The position numbers and the translations under genes are program-made. From positions 1 through 43,305 of the forward strand of contig CALVLF010000059.1 of assembly GCA_944336625.1 (NCBI GenBank): a stretch of DNA of 43,305 bases, given 5' to 3'. Below are positions 17,445-38,870 of this stretch, piece by piece (the first letter of the stretch is position 1; each line of letters starts with the position of its first letter). This DNA is from an uncultured Clostridia bacterium (GTDB lineage Bacteria > Bacillota > Clostridia > Christensenellales > CAG-138). The notes under the pieces were generated by a model that saw nothing but the letters and a program-made list of their open reading frames with translations, ran no database searches and was not told where the DNA came from.

Positions 17445-18518
17445 TCAATCCGCAAACCCCCAGTCCGGCCCCGGCCCCATGGTGCTGAGTATATTGGCGC
17501 CAAAGGCGGCTGTGCGCACCTGTATGCCCGGGGAAGCCAGGGCATCCCCGGGGTCGTTGGCCGTTTCCAGCAGGCAGAAGCGGGGGGGCAGCATGAAGGT
17601 CTTGTTCAGGCACAGGGCCCCCAGCACCTGCTGGGCCACCAGATCCCCCCCGCTGTAGCCGGAAACCACGATGGCATACAGGTATTTATCGTAGAGGCTG
17701 TTATTCACCAGCAGGGCCGTAAGCCGGTTGATAAAGGCGGTAATGTTGGCGGAGAGGGCGTCGTTATAATTGGGACAAAGGAGGAGCAGGCCGTCGCTTT
17801 CCAGCAGTGCGGGGAACACGGAATCCACAATGGGCCCCCCGTAGAAGCAGGCGTTGCTTCTGGCAAAGTGGGCGCAGGTTTTATAAGAGCAGCCCCGGCA
17901 GTCGAATACGGTACCATTGCGCAGGGAGATCTCCCGAATGGAGCAGCGGCCCGCAAGCCCTGCCGCCACCGCCTCCGCCAGGTCCAGGGTATTGGAGGTA
18001 GGGTGTTCGCTGGCATGGAGCAGCAGGAGCCGGGGGCTTGCATGGCGGGGCGGGTTGAAGGCAAGGAGCCGCTCCACCAGCCGCCGGGCGCTTTCCTGGT
18101 AGGCCGTCAGGGTATCCACCCCCGCCCGCCGGGCCTGCACCCGCAGGTTATGGAGGGAGCCCGTCCCCTCTACCAGGGGCTTGCCCGGGAAAAAGCATCC
18201 GGCCCCATTGGCGCACAGGGCCAGCATATGGGCCAGCTGCTTGGTATAAAGCTCCCCATCCCCATCGATGAGCAGGGCGCCGCAGCTCCCCTCCATGGCC
18301 CCGGGATGCTGCCGCAGGTACACGATCAGGCGGCAGATCTGGGCATCCAGGCCATACCGGCCCAGGGAAAGGGCAAAAAGGACCCGCCTGCCCCGGAGCG
18401 AAGGGATTTCCCCCTGCTCCAGATCCGCCCGCTCATAGGGCAGGCCCTGCAGCGCATATTGCATCACCCCGGCCAGGCGGATATGCCGGCCGGTTGTAAC
18501 TACCAGCAGAGGCTTCAT
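17445..18518 (-). CDS. Tandem flavodoxin-like protein with a cysteine cluster (NADPH-dependent FMN reductase / iron-sulfur flavoprotein type)
   Basis: A 357-residue protein in two halves. The C-terminal half (about 161-357) is a flavodoxin-like reductase domain: LLLLHASEHPTSNT, where the FMN phosphate loop should be, then LLLCPNYNDALSANITAFINRL. A cysteine cluster lies at Cys207, 210, 215 and 224, recalling iron-sulfur flavoproteins. The N-terminal half (1-150) looks like a degenerate second copy (LLVVTTGRH at its start, and LLIDGDGELYTKQLAHMLAL). Its start overlaps the stop of the LDH/MDH-like gene by 4 bp, so the two are co-translated. A redox partner role for that protein is inferred; substrate and electron donor are unknown. 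Confidence 0.65.
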   Translation of the reverse strand: MKPLLVVTTGRHIRLAGVMQYALQGLPYERADLEQGEIPSLRGRRVLFALSLGRYGLDAQICRLIVYLRQHPGAMEGSCGALLIDGDGELYTKQLAHMLALCANGAGCFFPGKPLVEGTGSLHNLRVQARRAGVDTLTAYQESARRLVERLLAFNPPRHASPRLLLLHASEHPTSNTLDLAEAVAAGLAGRCSIREISLRNGTVFDCRGCSYKTCAHFARSNACFYGGPIVDSVFPALLESDGLLLLCPNYNDALSANITAFINRLTALLVNNSLYDKYLYAIVVSGYSGGDLVAQQVLGALCLNKTFMLPPRFCLLETANDPGDALASPGIQVRTAAFGANILSTMGPGPDWGFAD

Positions 18519-19636
18519 CCTTCAAACCCCTCCAGCTCCTTATAGCAGGCTTCCAGCCGGGCCTGCAGCCCGGGGTGGATATCCTCCGCATACAGCTCCA
18601 GCCCCAGGGGGCCAAAGCGGTTCTTGCAGCCGAAATACACCCCCCGGATGGGAACGGCCCCCAGATGCCACTGGCCCCGGAGGGTTTGGAGGATGCTGAC
18701 GCAGGCGGAGGAAAGGCCCGGGGCGATATAGGGCTTATACCCCAGGGCCCGTACCTGCAGGTTGGCCTCCCGGGCCAGCTTGGTCAGGCGCAGGGAAAGG
18801 GCCTCGTCATAGGCATCCCCGGGGGCGTTGGCGATGACCAGCCCGGCTCCGTGGGGGCCATAGGCCCGGCCCTCTGCAAACCCGATGCCTTCCTTTTCCG
18901 CATAATAGGCTGCCCGGGCTGCCATAACCCCCAGGCCATAGCCCTGGACCTGCTCGGGCAGCAGGCCCTCGCAGTCAAAGCGGCCGGATACGTCCCGGTT
19001 GCTCTCCAGAAAGACGAAGCGGGAAAGCTGGTCCACCGGGTCGGAAATCTGGCAGAAAAGGCCGGAAAAGCCCGCCTCCCGGGCGGCGCGGGCATAGGCC
19101 CGGAGCATATCCTTATTGGCCCCATACTGGGCCATGCGCACATCCCCCCCCTGGCCCAGGGGGGGCACCCCCCGGCTGGCGGTGAAGAGGAGGGCATCGC
19201 ACTGGAAAAGCTCCTCCGCCTTTTTGCAAACCACCCGGGGCAGGGGCTCTTCCAGGGGGAGGATCTGGTTCAGCTCCATTTCATAGCGGGCCATGCGGGT
19301 TTCATCCGGGTCATAGATGCCGATTTCCCCCAGCCCCTGGCCCAGGAGCTTCAGGCCCGTCAGCAGGGTTCCCCCCACATCTCCCAGGCCCACCAGATTG
19401 AGCCGGGGGGCCTCCGGGGGATGCAGGAGCCGATCCAGCAGGGCGTAGCAGTTTGCATAGGCCGTATTCAGAAAGGCCCGGCTTCCGGAGCGGAAAAGGC
19501 CCCCGGCCCTGGGGGAAGGCTGGTAAAACAGGCAGACCAGAGGGGAGAAGGGGTCCATAACCCGCAGGGCCCCTGCGGGCAGGCGTTCCAGGTTGGGCCG
19601 GGCCAGGCAGGCCCCGCCATAGGCATAATATTCCAT
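18515..19636 (-). CDS. Lactate/malate dehydrogenase-like Rossmann protein
   Basis: The start at 19636 (MEYYAYGG) is chosen by the GAGGTGG site; 373 residues. The NAD-binding loop is NLVGLGDVGGTLL (about 80-92), with an acidic IYDPDETRM after beta-2 (NAD preference). The segment ISDPVDQLSR (197-206) parallels the NPVDVLT motif of LDH/MDH, and AYGPHGAGLVIAN parallels their GEHG catalytic histidine. An extra N-terminal domain of about 75 residues precedes the Rossmann fold, and classic substrate-loop arginines are not evident. It is translationally coupled to the flavoprotein gene. A 2-hydroxy-acid or related dehydrogenase is the best guess. Confidence 0.65.
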   Translation of the reverse strand: MEYYAYGGACLARPNLERLPAGALRVMDPFSPLVCLFYQPSPRAGGLFRSGSRAFLNTAYANCYALLDRLLHPPEAPRLNLVGLGDVGGTLLTGLKLLGQGLGEIGIYDPDETRMARYEMELNQILPLEEPLPRVVCKKAEELFQCDALLFTASRGVPPLGQGGDVRMAQYGANKDMLRAYARAAREAGFSGLFCQISDPVDQLSRFVFLESNRDVSGRFDCEGLLPEQVQGYGLGVMAARAAYYAEKEGIGFAEGRAYGPHGAGLVIANAPGDAYDEALSLRLTKLAREANLQVRALGYKPYIAPGLSSACVSILQTLRGQWHLGAVPIRGVYFGCKNRFGPLGLELYAEDIHPGLQARLEACYKELEGFEG

Positions 19637-19651
19637 ATATCCACCTCGTTC

Positions 19652-19725
19652 TACCCTTAACGAACAAGGACATACACGCCTGCGCAGGCCGCCAAAACCG
19701 TGTACCCCCTTGTCCGTTAAGGGTA
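19652..19725 (-). repeat. Long imperfect inverted repeat in the leader of the LDH/MDH-like gene
   Basis: Arms at 19652-19678 and 19699-19725 pair over 11, 6 and 6 bp separated by one and three mismatches; the outer bases are TACCCTTAACG. The element ends 15 nt before the start codon. Its downstream arm (minus strand) matches 31227-31255, which precedes the first M42 gene in the same position. Function unknown. Confidence 0.7.
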
Positions 19726-20094: not shown

Positions 20095-23000
20095 CTATGG
20101 CCTTCCCCTTCCCCGGGCCTGCTGGGGGGGCAGGGTATCCAGCCGCTCCAGCGCATCCAGATCCTGGTCCAGATACTGGGAGGGGGGCAGGTTGGGGTCA
20201 TAGCGCATGCCATCCCCCTTATAGGGGATACGGGGGGCGATGAAAGCCTCCCCCAGCCGCCGCAGGGTCAGGGGGCCGGAAAGGAGGGCCCCATGCCGCT
20301 CCTCCAGCACCTGCAGGATATCCCGGGCATTGGAAAGGGCGATCCTATCCAGCTCCCATACGGCCCGCTCCCCTGCCCCATGGAGGAAGCGGGGATAGGC
20401 ATAGGGCAGCATCAGGTTTACGGAGGGAATGGCCGTATCCAGCAGGGGTTGGCCCTCGATGCCATCCCCGCCGATGAAGGGATAAAGCAGGCTCTCATTG
20501 AACCAATAGCCCAGGTTGGGGATGAAATATTCACAGTCCACCGCCCGGCCCTGGGTGCGCATCAGATCCAGCCCTCGGCCCGAAAGGATGCCCGTGATGA
20601 TCCGGGCGATGGGCACATCCTCCGCCTTGAAGATGGGGTCCAGCTTTTCCATGCGGTAGCCATTATGCAGCAGGTCATCCACCAGCAATACGGGCCGCTG
20701 GAAGGATTTGAGGGTGCGCACCTGGTTCCTCAGGGAGGAATAGCCCGGGGTCTCCGTAAAGGAGAAGCCCGTCAGGTCCGGGTGGAAGGCCTTTTCCGCA
20801 TGGAGGGCCTTGGTAACCGTATTGGGCACGATATCCGCCGACAGGATTTTCCCATAGGGCACGCACATATTGGGCCCCAGCCGCCGCTGCCCCGGGGGTA
20901 CATCCAGCACCCCGTTCCATTTCTGCACCTTGGCCATAAGGGCTTGGTTCAAAAGCTCCGCATCGAAGGTGAGCAGGAGCCGGCCGGGGAAAAGGCCGCA
21001 TAGGCCCAGCCGCAGAGAGGGGCGGCGGCGGTGCACCGCCCGGATGACGGCGGCATCCGAGCTCAGGGGCTCCTTGATGCGGGAAAGGACATCCTGGATC
21101 AGCACCAGGGGGGAGCGCATATCCACCAGCAGCAGCCCCTCCGCCCCGGGAAGGGAGAGGAAGCCCAGCTGGGGCAGGAGGCTTGCCAGGTGCTCCTCCG
21201 GGGATTTGGGGCGGTAAACGGCATAGGTCACGTCATCCGCCAGGCTCCGGGCCAGGAGCTGGTTGCAAAGGAGGCGGGCGGCTTCCGCATGGATGGCGCT
21301 GCAGCCCTCGATGAGCAGAATCCGGCCCGAGGCCCGCTGCCGCAGGGCCTCCGCCTCCGCCGCGCTGCCCAGGGCTTCATGCAGGCCGGGGACGGAGAGG
21401 ATCCGGGCCCGGATCTCCCCCAGTGGGGTATCCGCATCCCGGCTGTGGAGGGAGAAGCGCAGGGCAGAATCCCCCTGGCGCCCCCCGTCGAAATACAGGG
21501 ATTCCAGGGTCAGCACCCGCTTATTTTGCGGGCTGCGGAGGTACAAACCCTTGGCATAGATAAAATCCTGCACCACCGGGTCCACCAGCATGGAAATATC
21601 CATGCTCTTATCGATGGACTGGCGGATGCGGGTAGAGCTTACGGTTTCATAATAAGCGGGCAGGGAGAGGATGATCAGCTCGCCGTGGATCTTGGCCCGG
21701 ATGCTGGCCCGGGCTGCCTCCTGCTCCTCCCCCTCTACCCGGGCGAAGACGATATGGTTGAAATAGCTGGCGCCCCCGGGCTTATCCTGATAATAGGCGG
21801 AGGCATTGAACACCACGTCGCTCCCCATGACCAGCCATACCCCTTCCCCGGGGAAAAGATCCGAAAGCTTTTTCAAATCCGCCGGGATGGCGATGTTCAC
21901 CGGCAGGTCATCCGGGAAGAGGAATACATCCGGAGCATCCGCTACGCTCATAAGGGCGATCTGCCGCCGGAGGAGCTTGGGAAGGGTGCGCTTATTCCAG
22001 GAGAACTCATCCACCGCCAGGTATACCGTAAAGCCCAGGCGCCGGATTTCATCCACGATGCGCCGGTGCCCGGCGGAGAAGGGGTCGAAGGTGCCGGGGA
22101 AGAAGGCGGCCCGCCCCGCCGGCGGGAAAAGGCAGGGCCCCAGCTCCGCCTGGGCGGTGGTGATGAAGCGGTACAGGTGGTTCACCATGGCGGCCCGGTT
22201 GAAGAAAGTGATGGAATCCTCCCGGGGCTCGCAAAGGAGGGTCAGGAGCTTTTTCGCGCAGCAGATAAAGGTCTGCATCCGCTTTTCCAGGGGCAGGGCG
22301 GGTTCATCGAAATACCGGCGGCACAGGACGTACAGGGCCGTGCGGTGGATGCTGTCTTCATAGTGGGCAATGCCCGTCAAAAGCAGGCCCAAGATGCGGG
22401 GCGTCAGGGCCGGGTCCTCCAGCTGGCCCAGCATGACCCCCAGGGTGGCCAGGGCCGCCCTGGCGGGCCGGATGTTGGAGGAGCGGACCATGGCCTCCAG
22501 CAGGGTGGTGCACTCGGCGGTTTCCTTGGGGGGCAGGCCGCAGATCAGGGCCCCCAGGTAAGGGGGGATATAATTGGAAATTTCGTCCTGGCCGCTTTCC
22601 AGCTCCCGGATCAGGTCGATGACGATCTCATTGCGCTGATCCACCCGCAGCAGCTCCGCCATGTCCCTTAGGGCCTGGCCCGCCCGCTCCCGCACGGGCA
22701 GGTGCTCGCTGACGGAAAGCAGGTTGGAAAGGTGCATGGCCACGTGGAAGGCCTCCTGCCTGTTTTCCCGGGCATAGGCTTCCAGCATGTCGATATAGGT
22801 GAGCTTCACCGTCCAGTGGACGGCGTTTTTCAGATTGGCCAGGAACAGGTCGGATACATTGGTCTGAGGGGGCTGGGCGGGCTTCCCTGCCCTGGCCCGG
22901 AGCCGCCCCATAAGGTAGGCCACTGCCGGGGGTTGTTCCCCGGGAAGGGCCCGCACCAGGGCCAGGGCCCCCCGGGTGCCCTCCCCCCCTCTGCTTTCCA

Positions 23001-24819
23001 GCAGCCGCTCCCCCAGGCGCAGGGCATAGATGACCAGGCGCTCCTCCTGCCCCGCCGGGGCTACCAGCTGGCACAGGCGCCGGAAAAAGCCGGCGGCTTC
23101 CCGGGGGGTCAAAAGCTCCAGGGGGGCATGGAGCAGAGCGTCTATGAGGATGAAAGGGTCCCCGGGCCGCAGATCTTCCCCCAGGAAGCGGCTGGCCAGG
23201 GGGGCCAGGAAATGCCGGGCCTCCCCAGGGGCGCAGGAAGCGAAGAGGGACTTGGTAATGGTTTTGAGGGAATTGGAGATGCGCTGGGCATGCTTGGTAG
23301 AAATTTTTACATCCGGGTGCAGGCAGCGCTCGATATAGCTATCCCACAGGTCCGCCGCTTCCTGCAGCACCTCGTTGATGGAAGGGGCAGCGGCGCCCTT
23401 GGGCGCCCGGGAGGGGAGCTCCTTGCGGTACTGGGGGCCACTGCCTGCCAATATCTGCCCCATGATGGAGCCGGCGTGGCGCCGCACATCCCCCTCGGAA
23501 TGCATCAGCAGCTCATAGAGGAAGCTCAGGGCCAGGAGCTTGCCGGAGCGGGTCATATAAACGCTGTAATCCTCCAGCAGCCTTAGGTAGGTGCGCATTC
23601 TATGGCGGTCTTTTTCCCCCCGGGCCTGCTCCAGCAGCTGCTCTACGGAGCGCTGGCCGCTGAGGGTATGCATGAGCTGGATATTATGGTAAAAGGCCAG
23701 GGAACGGAGCCGTTCCTCCGCCGCCTTGGGGGAAAGGAGGGAGGCATCCATCTCCTGCCGGGGCCGGAGGGAGCCTAGGGGGTCCGGGTCCACCCCCTGG
23801 CTTTGGAGGAAGGACTGGAAATCCCACAGCTTTTGATAGACGATTTCATATTGCCGGCGCTTTTCCTCGGTCATATTGGCCAGCTTGGAGAAGATGATAT
23901 CATGGGCCTCGGAAAGGGTATAGATGTGAATCCGCTCCCTGCCTTCCTCCCGTTGGCCCCGCACCCGGAAATCCGCATAGATGAGCAGCAGGCTTTCCAG
24001 GGGCAGGTTTTGAAACTCCAGATCCCAGGTGGAATGGTTTGCAGCAATATGGGCGATCTCGGGCAGGCCCTGGCGGGCTCCCCATTCCCAGGTATAATAG
24101 TAATGCAGGTAAGGCACCCTTTTTGCATCCTGGCCCCGGCAGCCGAATTTGCCGATATCATGAACCAGGGAGGAGGCTGCCACCAGGGGCAGGTCCACGG
24201 GCAGGCCGCACTGGGCCGCCTGCCGGGCCATAGCCACAGCCACATTATGTACCCCAATGATATGGGCCGCCGGGTCATAGGGCAGCACCAGGGGAGCCAG
24301 GCGCAGCAGGAGGAGATAGCGGCTTTCCCGCAGGCAGGCGGTGAAGCGCTTATATTCCTCCCGGATGCGGCTCTTTGCCAGCTCTGCCGTTGTAACGGGG
24401 CAAGGGTCCAGCAGGAGGCTATGGGCCAAGCTCTGGGGTTCCCGCTCCATCAGGCAGCCCAGAGTGCATAAGTACAGCTCCAGGGCCAGCTTTTCCCCGT
24501 GCCGGGGCCGGATAAAGTCTCTATCCGGGAAAAGGCCATCCGCCAAATAGGCATAGCAGCGGGCCAGCCAGCCTTCCTGAGGCGTTTGGGGGCAAAGGGA
24601 AGCCATGGTTCCCTGGCATACGGCCAGGACTGCCGCCGGGTCTGCCCGCTGGTCCAACCCCAGCTGCGAAGCCTCCTGGAAAAACCCGCCCCGCTCCAGA
24701 TGGGCGGCCAGGGTTCGCCGGGAAACGCGCCAGCGCTTTCCATAGTCTTCCAATAAGGCATCTGCCAGAAACTGATATGCTTTCGGTGCTTCCATCCCTA
24801 TGCTTCCAGGCCTTTCCAT
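20095..24819 (-). CDS. 1574-residue multidomain protein: HD - helical repeats - NadD-like nucleotidyltransferase - GNAT-like - PRTase-like
   Basis: Start at 24819 (AGGGG upstream) or in-frame at 24795. Residues 180-330 form an HD phosphohydrolase domain with His191, His220-Asp221, His262 and Asp283, so the metal site looks intact. Residues about 360-890 are alpha-helical, HEAT/armadillo-like. Residues 903-1095 are a nucleotidylyltransferase of the NadD/CTP_transf type: FPGTFDPFSAGH (907-918), MGSDVVFN, and SSTRIRQS (1061-1068). Residues about 1120-1205 resemble a GNAT fold (RILLIEGCSAIHAEAARLL). Residues 1375-1390 (RPVLLVDDLLHNGYRM) look like a PRPP-binding loop, followed by about 180 residues of unknown type. 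The HD plus NadD pairing recalls the adjacent yqeK and nadD genes of Firmicutes. A role in NAD or nucleotide metabolism is inferred. No frameshift is seen. Confidence 0.8.
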   Translation of the reverse strand: MERPGSIGMEAPKAYQFLADALLEDYGKRWRVSRRTLAAHLERGGFFQEASQLGLDQRADPAAVLAVCQGTMASLCPQTPQEGWLARCYAYLADGLFPDRDFIRPRHGEKLALELYLCTLGCLMEREPQSLAHSLLLDPCPVTTAELAKSRIREEYKRFTACLRESRYLLLLRLAPLVLPYDPAAHIIGVHNVAVAMARQAAQCGLPVDLPLVAASSLVHDIGKFGCRGQDAKRVPYLHYYYTWEWGARQGLPEIAHIAANHSTWDLEFQNLPLESLLLIYADFRVRGQREEGRERIHIYTLSEAHDIIFSKLANMTEEKRRQYEIVYQKLWDFQSFLQSQGVDPDPLGSLRPRQEMDASLLSPKAAEERLRSLAFYHNIQLMHTLSGQRSVEQLLEQARGEKDRHRMRTYLRLLEDYSVYMTRSGKLLALSFLYELLMHSEGDVRRHAGSIMGQILAGSGPQYRKELPSRAPKGAAAPSINEVLQEAADLWDSYIERCLHPDVKISTKHAQRISNSLKTITKSLFASCAPGEARHFLAPLASRFLGEDLRPGDPFILIDALLHAPLELLTPREAAGFFRRLCQLVAPAGQEERLVIYALRLGERLLESRGGEGTRGALALVRALPGEQPPAVAYLMGRLRARAGKPAQPPQTNVSDLFLANLKNAVHWTVKLTYIDMLEAYARENRQEAFHVAMHLSNLLSVSEHLPVRERAGQALRDMAELLRVDQRNEIVIDLIRELESGQDEISNYIPPYLGALICGLPPKETAECTTLLEAMVRSSNIRPARAALATLGVMLGQLEDPALTPRILGLLLTGIAHYEDSIHRTALYVLCRRYFDEPALPLEKRMQTFICCAKKLLTLLCEPREDSITFFNRAAMVNHLYRFITTAQAELGPCLFPPAGRAAFFPGTFDPFSAGHRRIVDEIRRLGFTVYLAVDEFSWNKRTLPKLLRRQIALMSVADAPDVFLFPDDLPVNIAIPADLKKLSDLFPGEGVWLVMGSDVVFNASAYYQDKPGGASYFNHIVFARVEGEEQEAARASIRAKIHGELIILSLPAYYETVSSTRIRQSIDKSMDISMLVDPVVQDFIYAKGLYLRSPQNKRVLTLESLYFDGGRQGDSALRFSLHSRDADTPLGEIRARILSVPGLHEALGSAAEAEALRQRASGRILLIEGCSAIHAEAARLLCNQLLARSLADDVTYAVYRPKSPEEHLASLLPQLGFLSLPGAEGLLLVDMRSPLVLIQDVLSRIKEPLSSDAAVIRAVHRRRPSLRLGLCGLFPGRLLLTFDAELLNQALMAKVQKWNGVLDVPPGQRRLGPNMCVPYGKILSADIVPNTVTKALHAEKAFHPDLTGFSFTETPGYSSLRNQVRTLKSFQRPVLLVDDLLHNGYRMEKLDPIFKAEDVPIARIITGILSGRGLDLMRTQGRAVDCEYFIPNLGYWFNESLLYPFIGGDGIEGQPLLDTAIPSVNLMLPYAYPRFLHGAGERAVWELDRIALSNARDILQVLEERHGALLSGPLTLRRLGEAFIAPRIPYKGDGMRYDPNLPPSQYLDQDLDALERLDTLPPQQARGRGRP

Positions 24820-24971: not shown

Positions 24972-25059
24972 CTCGTCGTCGCAAAGTCCGCTTTACTCCG
25001 GCGGCTTTTTAGCCTACAGCTAACCCCCACCGCAGCTAAGCGCACTTTGCGACGACGAG
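24972..25059. repeat. 88-bp element with 16-bp perfect terminal inverted repeats
   Basis: Arms CTCGTCGTCGCAAAGT (24972-24987) and ACTTTGCGACGACGAG (25044-25059) are perfectly complementary. The inside contains CCGGCGGCTTTTTAGC, also found near 730. Single arms occur at about 704-719, 30174-30189, 38338-38353 and 38538-38553. It looks like a miniature inverted-repeat element; no target duplication could be confirmed by eye. Confidence 0.65.
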
Positions 25060-25126: not shown

Positions 25127-25687
25127 ATGTCCCGAAACCGGTATACAGTAGCCCGTAAATCCATATGGTATGTGCTCAGAACCCTGCTGGTGGTGGTGGG
25201 GGTGGTGGTTTTGGCCCTGTATGTCTTTATCGGCGCCATGCATGTGAGCAATATTTACGTGCTTGTCACAGAGGGCATGGAGCTGCGGGCGGAATATATC
25301 CTCACCGGCGAAAATTTCAACGAGCTGACGGAATATTTCACCGAGGATTTCCTGGCCAATGACCAGGCCCTTTACGATGAAACCTATGGGGACTATACCG
25401 TCACGAATTTTATCTATAAGCTGGACCCTACGGGGATTTTCGTCCTTCCCTGGGATGTGGTAGCTTCCATGGAGGTAACGGAGAGCATGCTCTCCCTTTC
25501 CGGCACGGCCAATGAAGGGGCTGCCAGCAGCACGCTGCCCCCCTGGGAGCCCAAGCGCTACAGCGTAAAGCTGCGGCGCATCGACGGCCGGTGGTATATC
25601 AGCAGCCTGATCCTGGTGGAAGCCAATCCGGAAACCACCCCCGGCCCTACACCGGATATGCGCCTTCTCCCCTCCGCTACCCCCTGA
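25127..25687 (+). CDS. Membrane-anchored protein of unknown function
   Basis: A 186-residue protein with a strong AAGGAGG site. Residues 1-12 are basic, 13-37 form one transmembrane helix (IWYVLRTLLVVVGVVVLALYVF), and the rest would lie outside the cell. The extracellular part has a short alpha/beta character (EYILTGENFNELTEYFTEDFL, RRIDGRWYISSLILVEA) recalling NTF2-like or DUF4829-type domains, but I do not recognise the family with confidence. A Pro/Thr-rich tail ends it. The dusB start codon lies one base after its stop, so the two are coupled. Confidence 0.75.
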   Translation: MSRNRYTVARKSIWYVLRTLLVVVGVVVLALYVFIGAMHVSNIYVLVTEGMELRAEYILTGENFNELTEYFTEDFLANDQALYDETYGDYTVTNFIYKLDPTGIFVLPWDVVASMEVTESMLSLSGTANEGAASSTLPPWEPKRYSVKLRRIDGRWYISSLILVEANPETTPGPTPDMRLLPSATP

Positions 25688-29492: not shown

Positions 29493-30200
29493 CCTTCCTC
29501 GCGGGAGCGGGGCCTTATCCCGCTGGGCGGGGCCTTCCCTGCCGCCGGGCGAAATCCGGTTCGCCCGGCTTTGGCGGAAGGGAAAAGGAAGGCCGGCGAA
29601 GGCCCGGCGGGGGGCGGCGGGTGCGCAGAGCGCACACAAAGGCAGGGCCGGGGCGCAGCCCGGCCCTGCCTTTCGTTTGGCGGCCCTTGGGGCCGCCAAA
29701 CGCCGCCGCCCCGGTGCTGCGCGCACGGCGATATTCGCGCACAGACGCTTGTGGGAAGCGGTGGTTTGTACCCGCGCCCATTGCATGTATCCGCCCGGCC
29801 CCGTAGATTATGGGGCCGGGCTTTCGCCTTCCTTGCGCAGGCGGAAGGGCGCCCCTTTCGAAACTGCCTTCCCTGCCGCCGGGACACTGGATTATGTTCC
29901 CTCGGCTTTTTCCGGAGGAGGAAAGGAGCCTTGGCGGAAATACGCAGGGGGGCGGCGGCGCTTCGCATACAGGGCTCCGGGATGCCAGCATCCCGGAGCC
30001 CTTTTGCGAAGGGGAGGGGCCGGTTTTGCCGGCCCCTCCAGGAGCGCTTCGCGCTCCCCGCCGCCGCCCCCTCCGCCGGAATTTTTGCAAACTTTCCTTT
30101 TAAGCCCCATTGCGAACGGAGAGGTTACCCCGGATACTATGCACCGCCCCTAAACCCCACCGCAGTAAAGCCCACTTTGCGACGACGAGGCCCCTCCTTC
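29493..30200. repeat. Intergenic repeat mosaic between lysS and the peptidase operon
   Basis: Contains an inverted three-hairpin module (29614-29707) and a fourth 90-bp-type unit (about 29712-29792) with its GTAGATTAT hairpin (29793-29821). A hairpin with diverged stem and loop ACTGGATTAT follows (about 29878-29905). Next come a degenerate copy of the 50-nt palindrome (29961-30011), a GGAGGGGCCGG/CCGGCCCCTCC hairpin with GGAGCG/CGCTCC, and an ACTTTGCGACGACGAG arm (30174-30189). Several long open frames cross it, but none has a recognisable product. Confidence 0.7.
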
Positions 30201-31226: not shown

Positions 31227-31255
31227 GCGTGTATGCCCTTGTCCGTTAAGGGTAA
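31227..31255 (+). repeat. Leader element shared with the LDH/MDH-like gene
   Basis: 29 bases ending GTCCGTTAAGGGTA match the downstream arm of the inverted repeat at 19652-19725 with two differences. Here too the element sits just before the ribosome-binding site. A CCCTTAA...TTAAGGG inverted repeat (31214-31254) includes the stop codon of the M19 gene. Confidence 0.6.
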
Positions 31256-37822: not shown

Positions 37823-38870
37823 GGCTATAGGGCGGGCCTACAGGGGCGGCTTGGGGAAAAGCCTTGGGGAAGGGGGCGGCGGCGCGCTGCGCGCGCCGGT
37901 AGGGGCGGCCCTGAGGCCGCCCCTACCCAGGGCCCTTAGGGCCCCGCCGCCCCCCATCTCCCCTGGCCCTCCCTGCAGCCGCCGGAAAGCCGGGGGCAGG
38001 CCTGAGACCTGCCATGGGAAAGCGCTAAGCGCCCTCTCCCCCAAGGCGCGCAAAAGCCGGGGCCCAAAGGGCCCCGGCCCAGCGCGGCAAAAAAGCGGAT
38101 ATATAGGCCGCTTTTTTGTGCTTTGCAGCTTTGGCCGGCCGTGCGGCGCAAGCAAGCCAAAGCTGCAAAGAATCCCTTGCTACGCAAAGCTTTTCGCTGG
38201 CGCCGCCCATATTGCTGCCCACGATGGAAAGCCGCTGGGGCGGCGGCGTTTGGCGGGCCGAAGGCCCGCCAAACCAAAGCAAGGGCAGGGGCAAAGCCCC
38301 TGCCCTTGCTTTGTGTGCGCTTCGCGCACCCGCCGCCCTCGTCGTCGCAAAGTCCGCGGAGAAGCGTTTATCTCATTACAAGCCAAACTCTCAGCTCGCA
38401 ATGGTCGCCCTGCGTCGGGCCAGGAGGCCCTTCCTAGGGCTCCTTTGCTCACTGGGCTTCCGCCGCCGCGAAAGGCCCAAAGCAAGGCGGAGCGTGGCGA
38501 GGGCGCTTGCAACCGAGCAGCGAAGGCGCAGCGACGGCCTTTGCGACGACGAGGCGGCGGGAGCGCGGAGCGCTCCTGGAGGGGCCGGTTTTGCCGGCCC
38601 CTCCTCTTCGCAAAAGGGCTCCGGGCTGCTTGCATCCCGGGGCCCTGTATGCGAAGGCCGCCGCCCCCCTGCTTATTTCCGCCAACGTTTCTTTTTTCCT
38701 ATGGAGAAAGCCGGGGCCCATAATCTAGGGCCCCGGCGGCTGTAACCCTGCATCAAGGGAAATAAGGCTCCGCTCCCGCGGGGACGGAGAAAGCCCGGCC
38801 CCATAATCTACGGGGCCGGGCGGCAGGGAAGGCAGTTGGAATGGGGGCTCTTCCGCCTGCGCAAGGCTTG
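37823..38870. repeat. Large intergenic repeat mosaic
   Basis: In order: GGGGCGGCC palindromes; a symmetrical terminator-like hairpin AAAAAAGCGG/CCGCTTTTTT (38089-38117); and a 14-bp inverted repeat CTTTGCAGCTTTGG/CCAAAGCTGCAAAG (38121-38134, 38157-38170). Next come a three-hairpin module (38239-38337), CGTCGTCGCAAAGT arms (38338 and 38538) and the CTCACTGGGCTTCCGCCGCC block (about 38446-38465). The rest is a GGAGGGGCCGG hairpin, a degenerate 50-nt palindrome (about 38614-38660), and two hairpins with loop ATAATCTA or ATAATCTAC (38710-38737 and 38793-38821). Long open frames here are repeat-derived. Confidence 0.7.

Follow-up and report, generated by a model that had tools for sequence, protein, structure and literature searches.

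What is the role of a protein that joins several apparently nucleotide-handling domains in one very long chain? The window analyzed here is a contig of 43,305 nucleotides from an uncultured Clostridia bacterium (assembly GCA_944336625.1, contig CALVLF010000059.1) whose genome assembly of 2.18 Mb is 97.6% complete; among named relatives, a metagenome bin of the Christensenellaceae is closest. On the minus strand, positions 20095–24819 form a stop-free frame of 1574 codons, and we refer to its product as the giant. Homology searches retrieved giant homologues in relatives and across the order, class and phylum, and full-length, single-frame examples with 32–60% identity occur in many genera. Purifying selection acts on the gene, as in the two better-diverged pairs the dN/dS is 0.10 and 0.14 for the whole giant and 0.05 to 0.2 for each domain. 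The full-length homologues and a dN/dS of about 0.1 rule out a chance open frame or a pseudogene, and confirm the single uninterrupted 1574-residue frame reported in a preliminary description of this DNA. The in-frame TAG of some homologues lies 5' of the start codon. In one homologue (L034, G030:C97) the reading frame shifts near residue 1261 and the gene is split, which may reflect either sequencing error or decay.

The giant consists of N-terminal helices, a YqeK-like HD domain, a HEAT solenoid, a NadD/NMNAT-type adenylyltransferase, a GNAT-like segment and a phosphoribosyltransferase (PRTase)-like segment, in that order. The preliminary description had proposed the same order from the HD domain onward, and it stands, although the GNAT-like part looks degenerate and the PRTase-like part is of moderate strength with a non-canonical loop. 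No Pfam, NCBIfam or PADLOC model covers the whole protein. Conservation was assessed in an alignment of 35 giants; the alignments used for structure prediction exclude one homologue from a plasmid collection. Residues 1–149 (24373–24819, minus strand) are entirely helical in the AlphaFold2 model and show the lowest conservation in the protein.

The HD domain spans approximately residues 150–345 (23785–24372, minus strand), and the Pfam HD model matches this region in 27 of the 35 giants. HHalign comparison with a reference of 23 YqeK domains from related genomes gave a probability of 82% over 154 columns, compared with at most 2% for the other, unrelated families tested. Up to an E-value of 1, the NCBIfam matches of the window protein do not include the curated YqeK model TIGR00488, and the only HD matches are other, weak ones. 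Six residues corresponding to the ligand set of a dinuclear metal site (H186, H220, D221, H239, H262 and D283) are invariant in all 35 sequences, and H239, H262 and D283 line up with the conserved H, H and D of YqeK. Six such ligands are diagnostic for a dinuclear site (PMC8177086). The preliminary description had named His220-Asp221, His262 and Asp283 correctly. However, its His191 is present in 29 of 35 giants and is R, Q or K in the other six; the first ligand is His186, and the invariant His239 was not on its list. It had also considered that the HD active site might not be conserved among homologues, and we find all six ligands kept throughout.

The resemblance to the Ap4A hydrolase YqeK (COG1713) therefore lies in the profile similarity to the HD family and the six metal ligands. 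However, the spacing from the HD pair to the next histidine is shorter in the giant, the domain is embedded in a much larger protein, and one arginine is missing. HD phosphohydrolases conserve an arginine three residues ahead of the first HD histidine (PMC8177086). Among the 35 giants no sequence has it, as position 183 is T (21 sequences), P (12), A or L.

The roughly 500 residues of helical repeats that had been noticed previously can be identified as HEAT repeats. They occupy approximately residues 385–896 (22132–23667, minus strand), and Pfam HEAT repeats are detected in 18 of 35 giants. The AlphaFold2 model of residues 1–905 has a mean pLDDT of 88.8 and a pTM of 0.85, and residues 385–896 of this model resemble known HEAT solenoids with a best Z of 15.2. 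Matches at Z of about 11–15 reflect a shared helical-repeat arrangement in the predicted structure and are uninformative on function.

The adenylyltransferase domain (approximately residues 903–1098; 21526–22113, minus strand) contains the motifs GTFDPFSAGH and SSTRIR. Pfam CTP_transf_like is found in 34 of 35 giants, NadD models match 33–34 of 34, and HHalign against NadD gives a probability of 99%. The predicted structure of residues 640–1574 has a mean pLDDT of 86.5 and a pTM of 0.82. Within it, residues 902–1094 superimpose on a NadD structure (4rpi) with a VIA-align Z of 18.8 and an rmsd of 2.6 over 186 residues. Besides helical repeats, the top fold matches are nearly all NaMN/NMN adenylyltransferases; NadD and HEAT matches fill the lists obtained with both long models. 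FDPF and H918 are present in all 35 giants, and S1061, S1062, I1065 and R1066 (SSxxIR) are each present in 34.

The domain thus shares its fold and both signatures, GTFDP..xGH and SSTxIR, with NadD/NMNAT, as the preliminary description had seen. However, the first signature is altered. The second histidine of the NadD HxGH motif is invariant, but the first is S (27 sequences) or T (8), so that the motif reads as a GTFDPFSxGH type. The giant also falls far below the family cut-offs, scoring 33 bits against the 112 required by the curated NadD equivalog model TIGR00482. Additionally, an invariant tyrosine (Tyr1009) aligns with a tryptophan of NadD that stacks on nicotinate, which suggests that the base handled by the giant may not be nicotinate. 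W941 is also invariant and differs from NadD.

The segment that follows (approximately residues 1108–1275; 20995–21498, minus strand) is weakly similar to GNATs by HHalign, with a probability of 26% over 86 columns, while the other three domain segments give at most 0.2%. Its predicted strand-helix order is compatible with a GNAT fold, but the acetyl-CoA loop, R/Q-x-x-G-x-G/A, is not found in the giant alignment. The GNAT-like segment proposed earlier thus has weak profile similarity and looks degenerate.

The PRTase-like segment (approximately residues 1270–1485; 20365–21012, minus strand) carries the loop VLLVDDLLHNGYR. Pfam Pribosyltran is detected in 8 of 35 giants with a best E-value of 3.7e-4, and an adenine PRTase model matches 20 of 34. 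HHalign probabilities against PRTases range from 44 to 63% over 39–68 columns, with the likeness located at the PRPP loop. The larger PRTase reference set includes one doubtful row; a smaller adenine-type set without that row gives 59%. The loop consensus is VDDLLxKGYR, in which D1381, G1387 and R1389 are invariant, and the two acidic residues of the PRPP loop are present in 35 and 31 of the 35 giants, respectively. The loop lacks the phosphate-binding TGxT, with (N/K)G(Y)R in its place. The PRPP-loop-like sequence reported previously therefore has profile support, but it is non-canonical.

The closest known parallel is the fusion of NadD and YqeK (NF005519/PRK07152; JCVISYN3A_0380), which likewise carries a NaMN-adenylyltransferase-type domain and an HD hydrolase of the YqeK type on a single chain. 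In minimal mycoplasma this fusion synthesizes NaAD and degrades incorrect analogues, an experimental example of proofreading in NAD synthesis (PMC9426524). The comparison with YqeK and NadD drawn in the preliminary description is well founded, given the HHalign probabilities of 82% and 99% and the structural Z of 18.8. In the giant, however, the two modules are in reversed order, with the HD domain leading, and are held apart by a HEAT solenoid some 500 residues long; GNAT-like and PRTase-like parts form the end of the chain. The giant also differs in having two redox partners, described below, and in coexisting with a normal fusion. The same genome encodes, on a different contig, a second NadD-YqeK fusion protein whose motifs are intact and which is distinct from the giant, as a check for other copies of nadD and yqeK suggested in the preliminary description revealed, and other giant-bearing relatives also have one. 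This rules out the giant as the housekeeping NadD, the NAD enzyme of the cell.

The giant is the first of three genes on the same strand, a cassette that had not been noted before. It is followed by a gene of the LDH/MDH superfamily (18515–19660, 381 amino acids) and then by an FMN_red-family gene (17445–18518, 357 amino acids). The gene 5' of the giant (at 25127) is divergent, and a dihydrouridine synthase gene comes after it. Both partner genes lie directly 3' of the giant in almost every locus, with unrelated genes inserted in two loci, and beyond the three genes no generally conserved neighbors were found among the cassette loci compared.

The first partner matches LDH with an HHalign probability of 96.6% over 277 columns. 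It resembles the L-lactate/malate dehydrogenase superfamily in its Rossmann motif, loop arginine, second arginine and catalytic histidine. However, it has an N-terminal extension, the catalytic aspartate is an invariant methionine, and the asparagine of NPVD is an aspartate. Of the full LDH/MDH set (the Asp168-His195 pair, Arg109, Arg171 and Asn140) the Asp and Asn are missing, so the protein may not be a dehydrogenase. The second partner matches Pfam FMN_red (E-value 3.8e-15) and has four invariant cysteines (CX2CX4CX8C), by which it probably carries an iron-sulphur cluster. It resembles iron-sulphur flavoproteins of the FMN_red type in having this domain and four invariant cysteines, but it differs in the CX2CX4CX8C spacing and in having about 160 additional N-terminal residues. 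No convincing NCBIfam family and no PDB sequence match were found for this protein.

The giant is present in 32 of 391 Clostridia genomes sampled, beyond which three weak matches of about 50 bits are confined to the NadD-like part and what follows it. Of the 32 genomes with a giant, 31 also carry the LDH-like gene, and none of the other 359 does, setting aside a 50-bit match in one genome (G621) that was counted as an ordinary LDH relative. In the sole exception (G505), a contig end cuts the giant off. Giants occur patchily in Clostridia and in two further classes of the phylum, and all three genes lie side by side in two genomes of these other classes. The tree of giants closely tracks family labels, suggesting that the gene was mostly inherited vertically and was lost many times. 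The ties to two partner genes and the retention of the normal fusion make it doubtful that the giant is a self-contained NAD or nucleotide machine, as had been suggested.

The giant carries the NadD and YqeK modules of the mycoplasma fusion, reordered and spaced by a solenoid, and from this we infer an enzyme that makes and edits a dinucleotide for its redox partners. We tentatively favor this reading, in which the giant would be a scaffolded synthesis and editing enzyme for an NAD-type dinucleotide, at a probability somewhat below even. The NMNAT/NadD-type domain would join a mononucleotide to AMP from ATP, and the dinuclear HD domain would hydrolyze wrong or surplus dinucleotides. The HEAT solenoid would hold the transferase and the HD domain together and dock the partners, and the PRTase-like end may bind either the mononucleotide or the phosphoribosyl compound from which it is made. 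The product, or its quality control, would serve the LDH-superfamily protein and the probable iron-sulphur flavoprotein. The observed base of this proposal comprises domains recognized at the profile or fold level, conserved active-site residues, a co-inherited three-gene unit, purifying selection, and the decay seen in duplicate giants (see below). Catalysis by each domain, a dinucleotide product, its editing and its use by the partners are what we infer from that base. Counted against the proposal are Tyr1009 in place of tryptophan, the absent HD arginine, the lack of TGxT and the altered LDH-like partner. A stronger form, in which the giant would be a self-editing synthase of a non-canonical NAD-type dinucleotide cofactor for a dedicated redox pair, is rather improbable. 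If correct, it would constitute an undescribed cofactor pathway in anaerobic Clostridia.

The strict co-occurrence with the redox partners would also fit a product that is a specialised modified nucleotide cofactor other than NAD. The PRTase-like domain would place phosphoribose on an unusual base and the NadD-like domain would adenylylate it, with the partners acting as pathway enzymes or as the sole users of the cofactor. The presence of PRTase-like and adenylyltransferase domains in one chain and the invariant Y1009 and W941 are consistent with this possibility. However, the PRPP loop is non-canonical and no further biosynthetic gene is conserved nearby, and we consider it unlikely. The alteration of the LDH-like partner, together with the long HEAT region, the degenerate GNAT-like part and the altered PRTase-like part, could instead indicate a scaffold or regulator, in which the nucleotide domains act as sensors of NAD, PRPP or dinucleotides and the solenoid governs how the redox proteins work or assemble. 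The HD ligands and adenylyltransferase motifs are, however, almost fully invariant, as expected for working enzymes, and such a role is quite improbable.

Three genomes of one family encode a second giant without either redox partner (L072, L080 and L180). These duplicates form a single clade (SH-aLRT 100). The HD ligands and the PRTase-like loop are intact in all three, but the adenylyltransferase motif SSTQIR is SPAQIR in one, LSCETK in another and missing in the third, and by its sequence the adenylyltransferase of these proteins is decaying. It thus appears that the adenylyltransferase is needed only with the redox partners, and that the HD and PRTase-like parts serve some purpose independently of it, which is also counted against a synthesis and editing role. 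With three cases of a single origin, the pattern is suggestive and not proof. The duplicates amount to a natural experiment that predicts which activity serves which partner. They adjoin a phosphotransferase-like gene on the opposite strand in a head-to-head arrangement, which could indicate a second pathway; the kinase assignment was made by eye from motifs (CHND..ERN), and a 70-residue fragment has no Pfam match.

The retention of HD and PRTase-like motifs in all three duplicates is consistent with a nucleotide repair or salvage hub. Here the HD and PRTase-like core would recycle damaged or alarmone-type nucleotides (e.g. Ap4A-like), and the adenylyltransferase and redox proteins would repair NAD(P)H or components of it after damage. 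YqeK itself hydrolyzes Ap4A and acts on 8-oxo-GTP (PMC9426524, PMC8177086). However, a general repair function would not be expected to be distributed so patchily, the cassette has no other generally conserved neighbor, and the housekeeping NadD-YqeK is present as well. We regard a repair or salvage hub as fairly unlikely, and continue to prefer synthesis and editing of a dinucleotide for the two redox partners. The giant places the make-and-proofread pair of NadD and YqeK within a very large architecture that is new, contains a HEAT solenoid and is linked to a redox pair inherited strictly with it. Should the activities be borne out, they would define a pathway in anaerobic Clostridia that is dedicated to a dinucleotide or cofactor. 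The architecture is not described in the open-access literature searched; subscription papers or other domain databases could describe it.

Several other identities were considered and rejected. There is no PADLOC match that would indicate anti-phage defence and no phage match, and the sole match labeled 'plasmid' is to a replicon of Acetoanaerobium noterae that measures 2.6 Mb. For a relation to citrate-lyase ligase (PF08218), no match was found in the genome.

In two lineages (L025, L030, L031 and L036) purA and purB adjoin the cassette, one lineage having them upstream of it and the other downstream. At another locus (L035), a nicotinate phosphoribosyltransferase-like gene, identified by eye, is found approximately 0.5–2 kb upstream of the giant with one small gene between. 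Within the window, a 27-nt inverted repeat, CCCTTAACGAACAAGG, occurs at the start of the LDH-like gene (19652–19725), in a 435-base gap that is missing from most relatives, and a half-site resembling it lies at 31237–31252. A palindromic element with ends CGTCGTCGCAAAGT and 33-nt arms is located at 24972–25059. It recurs at 708–721, 30174–30187, 38340–38353 and 38538–38551, compared with a chance expectation of 0.03 in the window, and resembles a small repeat of a mobile or regulatory kind.
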